Assembly: GCF_945957265.1 (NCBI RefSeq)
Contig: NZ_CAMFKO010000005.1
Span: 62,001 to 126,000 of the forward strand
Reading direction: 5' to 3'
Length of the DNA stretch: 64,000 bases
From: an uncultured Dechloromonas sp.
Lineage (GTDB): Bacteria > Pseudomonadota > Gammaproteobacteria > Burkholderiales > Rhodocyclaceae
The notes under the pieces: model-generated
Database searches by the model: none
What the model saw: only the letters and a program-made list of their open reading frames with translations
What the model was told of the DNA's origin: nothing
Shown: piece after piece, positions 45,294-50,444 of the stretch
Layout: each line of letters starts with the position of its first letter
How positions within the stretch are numbered: position 1 is the first letter of the stretch
Translations under genes and position numbers: made by a program

Positions 45294-46043
45294 ATGAATT
45301 TGCCGCGTTTTTACTGCCGAGAAGCCCTCTCTCCGGGGGCGCATGTCGAACTGCCCGAGCCGGTGGCGCGCCACGCCGTGCGTGTGCTGCGCCTGCCGCC
45401 GGGCGCCCCGATGATCCTTTTCGATGGCCGGGGCGGCCAGTACCCGGCGCGCATCGAGCGCATCGAGCGCGATCGCGTCTATGCCGAGCTGTCGGCCTGG
45501 GAGGACGTGGAGTGCGAGTCGCCGCTCGCCATCACCCTGGTGCAGGCCCTGCAGGCCGGCGACAAGATGGATTTCACCATCCAGAAGGCGGTCGAGCTGG
45601 GGGTGCGCGACATCGTTCCGGTGGAGAGCAGGCGCAGCGTGCTGCGCCTGGCCGGGGAGCGGGCGGCCAAGCGCGTGGCGCACTGGCAGGGCGTGGTGGC
45701 CTCGGCCTGCGAACAGTGCGGGCGCAACCAGGTGCCGCTGGTGGCGCCGGTGGAAAAGCTGGAGAGCTGGCTGTCCCGGCCGGCGAACGGCGTCTTGCGC
45801 CTGATGCTCGATCCCGAGGCGGAAACCAGCTTCGCCTCGATGCGCCCGGAGGGGGCGGTGCAACTGCTGATCGGCGCCGAAGGTGGCCTCGATCCGCAGG
45901 AAATGATCGCCGCCCGGCAGGCCGGCTTCGTCGCCGTGCGCATGGGGCCGCGCGTGCTGCGCACGGAAACGGCGGGCTTGGCCGCCTTGGCGGTGATGCA
46001 GGCTTTGTGGGGTGATTTCAGGGGGGGCGGTGTCTCCCCTTAG
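45294..46043 (+). CDS. rsmE: 16S rRNA m3U1498 methyltransferase RsmE
   Basis: A 249-residue SPOUT-class methyltransferase that methylates U1498 of 16S rRNA. Core segments are ARHAVRVLRLPPGAP, DKMDFTIQKAVELGV, ACEQCGRNQVP and the SAM knot LLIGAEGGLDPQEM with RMGPRVLRTETA. The normal end is near LWGDF; here seven more residues (RGGGVSP) follow and the stop codon (46041-46043) lies inside the left arm of a palindromic element. The extra tail looks like a product of that insertion. Confidence 0.93.
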   Translation: MNLPRFYCREALSPGAHVELPEPVARHAVRVLRLPPGAPMILFDGRGGQYPARIERIERDRVYAELSAWEDVECESPLAITLVQALQAGDKMDFTIQKAVELGVRDIVPVESRRSVLRLAGERAAKRVAHWQGVVASACEQCGRNQVPLVAPVEKLESWLSRPANGVLRLMLDPEAETSFASMRPEGAVQLLIGAEGGLDPQEMIAARQAGFVAVRMGPRVLRTETAGLAALAVMQALWGDFRGGGVSP

Positions 46044-46296
46044 TGGCTTTTCAGCCCGCGACCGGGAGGCCTTGCGATGCAGTGCAAGGAAAGAGGAGTG
46101 CAGTTTGGTTGATCCAAATAAACGACGATTGACGCAGCAATGCGCGCAAGGCCTCCCGGTCCCTTCGGGTTGCTACTGGCGGGCCGCGTCTGCGTCGTTG
46201 CACGGCTTGCGAATGGGTGGCCATTCGCTGTGCCGCGCGCCTAGCATCCATCGGCCCGCCAGTAGCAACGCGGGCTGAAAAGCCACTAAGGGGAGA
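46033..46296. repeat. Palindromic MITE-like element with perfect 28-bp terminal inverted repeats
   Basis: The outer arms (46033-46060 and 46269-46296) are perfect 28-bp inverted copies ending in CCCGCG/CGCGGG. Directly inside, ACCGGGAGGCCTTGCG (46061-46076) pairs perfectly with 46145-46160, and TTGCTACTGGCGGGCC (46170-46185) pairs perfectly with 46253-46268, which abuts the right outer arm. A further GCGAATGG/CCATTCGC stem (46209-46216 with 46221-46228) sits in the second loop. The result would be a three-way junction. No gene is supported inside. The left arm holds the rsmE stop codon and the right arm the ppk2 ribosome site. Confidence 0.85.
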
Positions 46297-46300
46297 GACT

Positions 46301-47809
46301 ATGTTTGAATCGGCAGAACTGGGGCATAAGGTCGACAAGAAAACCTTCAAGACCGAAGTCCCGAAGCTGCGCGCCGAGTTGCTCGACGTGCAGTACGACA
46401 TGCTGCAGAAGAAGGAATTTCCGGTCGTCATCCTGATTTCCGGGGTCGACGGCAGCGGCAAGGGCGAAACCATCAACCTGCTATATTCGTGGATGGACCC
46501 GCGCCACATCTCGACGCTGGCGTTTTCGGCGCCGAGCGACGAGGAATCGTCGCGGCCTTACATGTGGCGTTACTGGCGCGCCCTGCCGCCCAAGGGCAAG
46601 GTCGGCATCTTCGCCGGCTCCTGGTATTCGCAGCCGATCACCGACCGCATCAACGGCGACATGCGCCGCTCGGAGCTCGACGGGCGCCTGGACGACATCA
46701 ACCGCTTCGAGACCATGCTGGTCAACGAAGGGGCGCTGGTCCTCAAGTTCTGGTTCCACCTTTCCAAGGACGGCCAGAAAACCCGCCTGAAAGCGCTGGA
46801 GAAAGACCCGCGCACGGCCTGGCGGGTGACCAAGGAGAGTTACGAGCGCCTGAAGACCTACAACCAGCTGCAGCAGGTGGCCGGGCATGTGCTGCGCGTG
46901 ACCAACACGGCGCATGCGCCGTGGATCATCGTCGAGGGAACCGACGACGAATACCGCTCGCTGACGGTCGGGCGCATCGTGCTCGAGGCCATGAAGCGCC
47001 GGGTGAACCAGGAAGGCCTGCAGCGCGTCCCGGTCGCCCCGCCCATCGTGCATCCGATTGACGAGAAGAACGTGCTCAGCGAACTTGATCTGACGCAGAA
47101 GCTCGCCAAGCAAACCTACGAGACGCAGCTCGCCAAGTACCAGGCGCGGCTGTCGGAACTGGTGCGCGACCCGCGTTTCGTCGGCAAGCGTTCGCTGGTG
47201 CTGGTCTTCGAAGGCTCGGATGCGGCCGGCAAGGGCGGCAGCATCCGCCGCGTCGCCGCGTCCATGGATGCCCGGCAGTACCAGATCGTGCCGATTGCCG
47301 CGCCGACCGAGGAAGAGCGGGCGCAGCCCTACCTCTGGCGCTTCTGGCGCCACCTGCCGCGCACCGGCCGGGCGGCGATCTTCGATCGCTCGTGGTACGG
47401 CCGCGTGCTCGTCGAGCGGGTCGAGGGCTTCTGCGCCGAGGCCGACTGGCTGCGCGCCTACGCCGAGATCAACGATTTCGAGCACCAGTTGTCCGACGCC
47501 GGCGCGGTGGTCGTCAAGTTCTGGCTGCAGATCAGCGCCGACGAGCAGTTGCGCCGTTTCAAGGAGCGCCAGGACACCGAGTTCAAGCGCTTCAAGATCA
47601 CCGACGAGGACTGGCGCAACCGCGACAAGTGGGACGACTACGTGGCCGCCGTGTGCGACATGGTCGACCGCACGTCAACCGGGCTGGCGCCCTGGACGTT
47701 GGTTGAGGCCAACGACAAGAACTTCGCCCGGGTTAAAGTGCTGAAAACCATTTGCGAGCGCCTGGAAGCGGCGCTCAAGGACGACGACGGGAAAACCACC
47801 GAAAAATGA
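46301..47809 (+). CDS. ppk2: Polyphosphate:AMP phosphotransferase, two-domain PPK2
   Basis: A 502-residue protein of two fused PPK2 domains (about 1-250 and 260-500). Walker A motifs are SGVDGSGKGETI in the first and EGSDAAGKGGSI in the second; lid and Walker B segments are PYMWRYWRALPPKGK and PYLWRFWRHLPRTGR with FDRSWYGRVLVERV. Class II (PAP-type) PPK2 enzymes with two domains phosphorylate AMP to ADP using polyphosphate; the N-terminal copy is usually the degenerate half, as suggested here by IFAGSWYSQPI. The start ATG at 46301 has its ribosome site (GGGGAGA) in the palindromic element. Its stop overlaps the argA start. Confidence 0.92.
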   Translation: MFESAELGHKVDKKTFKTEVPKLRAELLDVQYDMLQKKEFPVVILISGVDGSGKGETINLLYSWMDPRHISTLAFSAPSDEESSRPYMWRYWRALPPKGKVGIFAGSWYSQPITDRINGDMRRSELDGRLDDINRFETMLVNEGALVLKFWFHLSKDGQKTRLKALEKDPRTAWRVTKESYERLKTYNQLQQVAGHVLRVTNTAHAPWIIVEGTDDEYRSLTVGRIVLEAMKRRVNQEGLQRVPVAPPIVHPIDEKNVLSELDLTQKLAKQTYETQLAKYQARLSELVRDPRFVGKRSLVLVFEGSDAAGKGGSIRRVAASMDARQYQIVPIAAPTEEERAQPYLWRFWRHLPRTGRAAIFDRSWYGRVLVERVEGFCAEADWLRAYAEINDFEHQLSDAGAVVVKFWLQISADEQLRRFKERQDTEFKRFKITDEDWRNRDKWDDYVAAVCDMVDRTSTGLAPWTLVEANDKNFARVKVLKTICERLEAALKDDDGKTTEK

Positions 47810-50283: not shown

Positions 50284-50444
50284 GTGGTCTGCCCCGCAGA
50301 TGGCGGAACAAAATGAAAGCGAGGGATTTGCTTCGCTGGCTAGGCGCGAACCACAGCAATAGCCGCTGCTATTGCGAGGATGAGCAACAACGCCAGCGGG
50401 GCAAAGACGAGTTTTCATGTTTCGTTATCTGTGGGGCAGATCAC
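50284..50444. repeat. Decayed foldback (imperfect inverted repeat) beside phoX
   Basis: GTGGTCTGCCCCGCAGAT (50284-50301) pairs with 50427-50444 with 2 mismatches, TTTGCTTCGCTGGC (50327-50340) pairs with 50392-50405 with 2 mismatches, and a perfect GCAATAGC/GCTATTGC stem (50356-50363 with 50368-50375) sits in the centre. The whole 161 bp reads as one long imperfect hairpin. It starts six bases past the phoX stop and covers the region where the small protein gene needs its promoter. It may be an old relative of the element at 46033, although the arm sequences differ. Confidence 0.65.

Follow-up and report, generated by a model that had tools for sequence, protein, structure and literature searches.

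A two-hairpin foldback element between rsmE and ppk2 in an uncultured Dechloromonas: probably an old copy of a MITE-like family with a shared structured core and changing ends

We describe a 264-bp palindromic element located between rsmE and ppk2, at positions 46033-46296 of a 64,000-nucleotide stretch of an uncultured Dechloromonas sp. genome (hereafter the window). The element is very probably an old member of a MITE-like family built around a core of two inverted hairpins. In active relatives, an IS5-family transposase would act in trans on the outer arms, using them as terminal inverted repeats. What appears to be new, judged from the sequences compared, is that the structured core is common to many genomes while the ends change. 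Searches of open PMC papers yielded no earlier account of the family.

The perfectly paired part of this foldback, as defined by arm comparison and folding (no strand assigned), has the borders proposed in an earlier note on this DNA, which had described perfect 28-bp outer inverted arms. The left arm (46033-46060, + strand) and the right arm (46269-46296, + strand) are indeed complementary at 28 of 28 positions, and they can be stretched to 46030 and 46299 to give 31 nt with one mismatch. Between the arms are two hairpins of approximately 101 nt each, which we propose constitute the conserved structured core. Hairpin H1 (46060-46161, + strand) has a 17-bp stem (46060-46076/46145-46161) and a conserved internal loop. 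H2 (46169-46269, - strand) is an inverted copy of the same module type, with an 18-bp stem inside a 21-nt pair that matches at 95% (46166-46186/46252-46272). H1 and H2 score 78.8 bits (E 2.3e-15) and 73.1 bits (E 5e-14), respectively, against R1, a covariance model of the single module, both being among the 20 modules used to build it. The two nested pairs of perfect 16-bp arms claimed earlier therefore exist but are slightly longer, at 17 bp and 18 bp. The hairpins are joined by the linker CCTTCGG (46162-46168, + strand), which, from sequence reading, is recurrent in the family. Integron attC sites were considered and rejected as a match, with the second stem (GTTGC..GCAAC) the wrong way round and the stems variable.

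The predicted minimum free energy of the element is -183.5 kcal/mol, compared with -106.5 +/- 5.4 kcal/mol in 200 shuffled sequences (z -14.2; 0/200 as good), and the large fold suggested earlier is thus far beyond chance. The element was also correctly described as carrying no credible gene: the 88-aa and 152-aa reading frames of its interior in the ORF list are mechanical, and it has no transposase gene of its own, as is expected of a MITE. A search of Rfam with positions 45900-46450 gave no match at E up to 1. An alternative boundary for the window copy, running from GTGG to CCAC with TA on both sides (approximately 244 bp), could be drawn; the longer one is preferred because arms in the family are approximately 30 nt long and congeners lack the 18-bp palindrome that the shorter one requires. 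Amplification can produce perfect inverted repeats, which is the one point in favour of an assembly or foldback artefact. The element is however found inside a 141-kb contig, the same plan occurs in many independent assemblies, several of them single-contig, and nested, non-identical hairpins with a common loop would not be expected of an artefact, an explanation that we consider vanishingly improbable.

The gene upstream, rsmE (45294-46043, + strand), encodes a 16S rRNA (uracil1498-N3)-methyltransferase (NF008692, 323 bits), and its reading frame stops at a TAG (46041-46043) within the left arm. Downstream is a gene for a polyphosphate:AMP phosphotransferase with two PPK2 stretches (46301-47809, + strand; TIGR03708, 789 bits), here called ppk2. 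The right arm contains the candidate ribosome site AGGGGAG, which precedes the ppk2 ATG at 46301 and, by eye, is the sole good candidate, in agreement with the proposal that the element supplies it. The element was also said to add the tail RGGGVSP to RsmE. Its left border reads AGGGGGGGCGGTGTCTCC, and the stop codon is inside the arm, but since the congener proteins end in GDFREG, GDFRGG and similar sequences, the element probably contributed no more than the last residues, GVSP, and the stop codon.

We searched 21 congeners for the same junction and left out one (G007), from which a paralogue alone was obtained. The element is missing in all 20 readable congeners, in which rsmE and ppk2 are adjacent, either a few nucleotides apart or overlapping. 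In the closest of them (G009; ppk2 identity 97%), the junction reads GATTTCAGGGAGGGGTAGATCATG. Since the element is missing from all 20, the window copy is taken to have entered the rsmE-ppk2 junction. As had been noted earlier, there is no obvious target duplication at the window copy, the flanks of which do not match on sequence reading, although many relatives do have one. Its outermost ends look eroded and its stems are still perfect. Insertion probably occurred at the TA of the rsmE TAG stop codon, after which each border would have shed a few bases, presumably including the target duplication. The window copy is thus a worn member of the family by descent, with no target duplication visible and no insertion sequence (IS) partner found in its own genome, which is 91% complete in 71 contigs.

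Using an ORF heuristic, we found a stop codon at the element border at 14 of 54 3' ends that face family copies. The genes flanking 59 copies are in tandem in 30 cases, divergent in 17 and convergent in 12 by the same heuristic, with no preference for convergent sites. Copies at stop codons may remodel operon junctions, as at rsmE-ppk2.

The own genome carries one further two-module copy (L002). The window also contains a second, single-hairpin relative (50284-50444, no strand assigned; module 50315-50416; R1 33.2 bits, E 1.1e-4), whose ends, read by eye, are TA-GTGGTCTGCCCC and GGGGCAGATCAC. Together with further single-hairpin places found by eye, these are dispersed copies within one genome, and more were found in relatives. 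Single-hairpin elements with TA-GTGGTCTGCTTCG ends were seen by eye to recur in the own genome and in congeners.

With BLAST, the element matched 7 of 60 genomes, including its own, and the other six matches were partial. R1 detected modules in 31 of the 60 at E 1e-3. With a cut-off of E 1e-5, the order yielded 80 carriers among 200 genomes and the phylum 78 among 299 (own genome included in each case), E-values of this model being rough. Of the 78 carriers, eight belong to the order, 16 others to the same class and the remaining 54 to other parts of the phylum; this count leans on a single family, which contributes 43 of the 54. An element family as wide as these counts suggest would rank with the more widespread MITE groups of bacteria. 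Carriers found by a pattern scan (20 stretches) include Sulfuricella, Thiobacillus, Parasulfuritortus, Sulfuriferula and Gallionellaceae. Phage records gave no match for the element, and viral contigs gave none for one exact pattern that represents one module subtype only. Rfam searches of loci from six relatives returned one match, at E 0.92 and outside the element.

The family plan consists of an arm of approximately 30 nt, a hairpin of approximately 101 nt, a linker of approximately 7 nt (e.g., CCCTTCGGG), an inverted hairpin of approximately 101 nt and a second arm. Most of the places matched by BLAST follow this plan when read out in full, although in L013 and L016 one hairpin is largely gone. 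The second hairpin repeats the first module in inverted orientation, and the two align after one of them is reverse-complemented. Of 60 loci retrieved, 34 have two modules, always + then -, and 26 have one. In a later sample of 20 places, 12 were listed as inverted pairs, all with arms (score 21-31.5), and the other eight had been entered with one module; five of these fit a two-module span better and three are single, one of which (L305) has no convincing arms. For the analysis of ends, 65 two-module elements were reduced to 62 by leaving out L118, which has a damaged arm, together with L099 and L116, which duplicate L014 and L007, and then to 59 by dropping those without a G-purine-purine start, namely the window copy (L001), L150 and L151. 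The core is 263-269 bp long in 48 of the 59. L006, L012, L017 and L101 form a subfamily with cores of 294-300 bp and linkers of 37-39 nt.

The stems are free in their letters and bound in their pairing, and the loop is fixed in its letters. In an alignment of 148 distinct modules, 87.8% of cells pair, compared with 53.9% with shuffled partners; two-sided changes are seen in 1762 cells, versus 519 after shuffling, and the covariation score reaches 0.769, compared with 0.179 +/- 0.006 for shuffled and 0.108-0.133 for slid partners, all of this in an alignment fitted to the structure, which favours pairing, and with R1 built from 20 of those modules. Changes on both sides are seen in 37 of 38 pairs, a measure that says little by itself, as shuffles give 35.7 on average. 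Pairing is weaker in the middle helix (73.8%). Neither the stems of individual sequences nor the perfect arms found in many copies depend on the structure-fitted alignment. The internal loop CAAGGC/AACGC, in contrast to the stems, is nearly invariant: in the best 150 of 154 matches, G33 and A94 are kept in 150, C30 in 149, C95 in 148, A32 in 144, and C35 and A93 in 143. The loop may have been kept because the folded hairpin is read by something that aids spread or host tolerance. Since stems drift yet remain paired, such a family would escape sequence searches.

Across all columns, G-T mismatches outnumber A-C mismatches by 318 to 194, which we considered as an RNA-strand signature. We dropped it when the exclusion of columns with at least 10 cells of one mismatch type and of the badly aligned middle helix left 64 to 53. 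RNA tolerates G-U, and because the two classes are about equal after filtering, there is no support for selection of the stems as RNA pairing.

The earlier note took the perfection of the arms to imply recent arrival or active maintenance. Recency is not required, and the eroded ends and perfect stems of the window copy, together with the arms of one genome (G059), lean towards maintenance. In G059, the one genome measured, the segment that follows GAGCCTGTT varies between copies and is mostly equal within a copy. Across 26 arm pairs (52 of 61 arm matches, the other nine being partnerless), the mean number of mismatches in 23 positions is 0.81 within a copy and 3.79 between copies; 13 of the 26 pairs are perfect, and none of 20,000 shuffles reached the within-copy figure. 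Independent decay of the arms does not give this likeness, and we lean to maintenance because the arms match within a copy far better than between copies. In foldbacks, template switching can make the arms alike and yield compensatory changes (PMC8794818), and selection for the fold is another possibility; either or both may keep the two arms of a copy alike.

The element ends point to the type of enzyme involved. The 59 elements, in which the core starts with G-purine-purine, have TA on both sides in 21 cases and a 3-bp repeat (TTA or TAA) in 13, so that a target duplication is seen in 34 and neither repeat in 25. These repeats suggest a DDE enzyme. A short end pattern, TAGKGGTCTGCCCC, did no better than its reversed control and served for finding candidates only. 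The common end of the genus was sought with a pattern across 60 genomes of the genus. In one of these genomes (G073), two such ends 822 bp apart enclose DUF4096 and DDE_Tnp_1 in two frames and are flanked by TA. This IS (L239) is 818 bp long, with ends GGGCCTGTTCACAGTAAC and TA. Its ends match those of two-hairpin copies of other genus members, the IS and the copies being in different genomes, and the same IS ends were found at contig ends in G034 and G082. At L239:1370-1382, where the two transposase frames meet, there is a run CCCAAAAAAACGG, presumably as in IS elements that use frameshifting.

Within genome G236, IS5-family elements (NF033580) and the local two-hairpin element have common ends GAAYYCATTTCATAAATAG. 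Nine equal-scoring places were listed for this element and five were retrieved, of which four are identical and one has a single difference; the five copies are at five sites, each with TA at both borders. In the same genome (L342, C1:2571200-2575000), two opposite IS5 copies approximately 0.4 kb apart can be seen beside a two-hairpin element. In G049, the IS ends GAAGCTGTTTTAA and the element ends GAAGCTGTCTTAA match over GAAGCTGTYTTAA, and both have 3-base repeats; the G049 transposase match falls under the PF13586 cut-off. Ends in common between IS5-family elements and family members were therefore found within G236, within G049 and across genomes of the own genus, and different end types carry the same core. 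PF13586 matches were found in 7 of 16 genomes searched; the own genome had none, likewise eight others of the 16, and for most carriers no IS partner was found. The genus end pattern was not found in the own genome, and no IS sharing the ends of the window copy was found.

Among 72,556 plasmid records, one matched, an element from Azotobacter with a damaged left arm that matches 46% of the query. On this Azotobacter chroococcum plasmid (L118:2508-3923), an IS630-family IS is located at the TA of the two-hairpin element. IS630 was considered as the mobilising family and dropped, as that IS630 has its own, different ends.

The earlier note favoured a MITE or REPIN-like palindromic element moved by an enzyme encoded elsewhere. 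Dispersal, empty sites, repeats and IS5-type ends uphold a palindromic, non-autonomous element moved by a foreign enzyme, but not a REPIN proper, in which a RAYT (Y1) transposase mobilises two REP hairpins of opposite orientation in single-stranded form. The window family resembles REPINs in having an inverted pair of hairpin units at a defined spacing, compensatory changes and a clover-like fold (PMC3116915). A Y1_Tnp domain, which is common to RAYTs and IS200/IS605 transposases, was found in 13 of the 16 carriers searched. The domain is however missing from three of the 16, the own genome, G085 and G235, the latter two carrying 15 and at least 20 modules, respectively. Modules of approximately 101 nt are also much longer than REP units, given as 20-40 bp (PMC3733652), and REPINs are RAYT-associated, whereas TA or 3-bp repeats and end identity with IS5-family elements fit a DDE enzyme. 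We accordingly regard a REPIN as most unlikely and, as far as sequence can tell, the element as something else.

A close parallel among MITEs of IS5-family insertion sequences comes from Acinetobacter, where ISAba12 belongs to the IS5 family. MITEAba12 has no transposase gene, shares terminal inverted repeats with a coresident IS, is moved in trans and has duplications in part of its copies (40%) (PMC6382973). It differs from the window family in size (approximately 113 bp with 9-bp duplications, versus approximately 266 bp), and no structured core is described for it in the text consulted (PMC6382973), whereas the window family has two inverted modules with a near-invariant loop. The window family also occurs in many taxa, and its ends differ between genomes. 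Correia/NEMIS, ERIC and RUP elements are likewise small, with TA ends and foldback RNA, and the ends of RUP match IS630-Spn1; as far as the cited text goes, they are single stem-loops of 107-155 bp from other taxa (PMC2229807). The CIR repeats of Caulobacter and Brucella have two long arms and a linker, but the same text gives them a GANTC motif, no terminal inverted repeat and other hosts (PMC2229807).

It had also been suggested that the element, as a folded leader, might control polyphosphate metabolism. Fold computations predict that the AGGGGAG preceding ppk2 is base-paired once the transcript has folded (unpaired probability <=0.004), and that with a ribosome over the rsmE stop its unpaired probability is 0.09-0.96, depending on position and on three assumed footprints. 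For G009, the corresponding stretch is predicted to be partly open unaided. The stable fold and buried ribosome site could be those of a fixed riboregulator acting in cis on ppk2 or on polyphosphate metabolism, found only at this locus. This reading is contradicted by the 20 empty junctions and by the location of relatives elsewhere, and the mismatch counts carry no sign of RNA pairing; it is very improbable, and we take the element not to be such a regulator. A less strained suggestion, which we hold only tentatively, is an acquired regulator: in this species, the inserted mobile element would have come to link the translation of ppk2 to that of rsmE. The left arm holds the rsmE stop and the right arm the ribosome site, and the two genes are neighbours in congeners; against this, the case is one of thermodynamic prediction and the position is not conserved. 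Under this suggestion, the stem would hide the ppk2 ribosome site until a ribosome finishing rsmE opens the left arm, and ppk2 translation is predicted to depend on rsmE translation at long range.

Returning to the MITE-like reading, a broader and more speculative version of it, which we consider somewhat doubtful, is that a portable two-hairpin core has persisted across Proteobacteria by changing its arms to suit the resident IS5-type transposase. In this scheme, the CAAGGC/AACGC loop would be read as structured DNA or RNA, template switching inside the foldback would transfer a new end from one side to the other, and the opposite orientation of the two modules would ensure that one of them is in working orientation whichever strand is presented. 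The family could offer a natural test of whether palindrome perfection comes from selection or from replication template switching, of how a MITE changes transposase, and of what reads a conserved loop.

Two reduced forms were observed. Near C11:822400 in G059, L250 is an arms-only derivative in which the outer arms are nearly back to back and the hairpins are gone. In G024, a lone module (L177:974-1073) with tRNA-Ala (905-980) on one side and tRNA-Ile (1076-1152) on the other appears to sit in the spacer of an rRNA operon, and the same genome has an equal-scoring second place.
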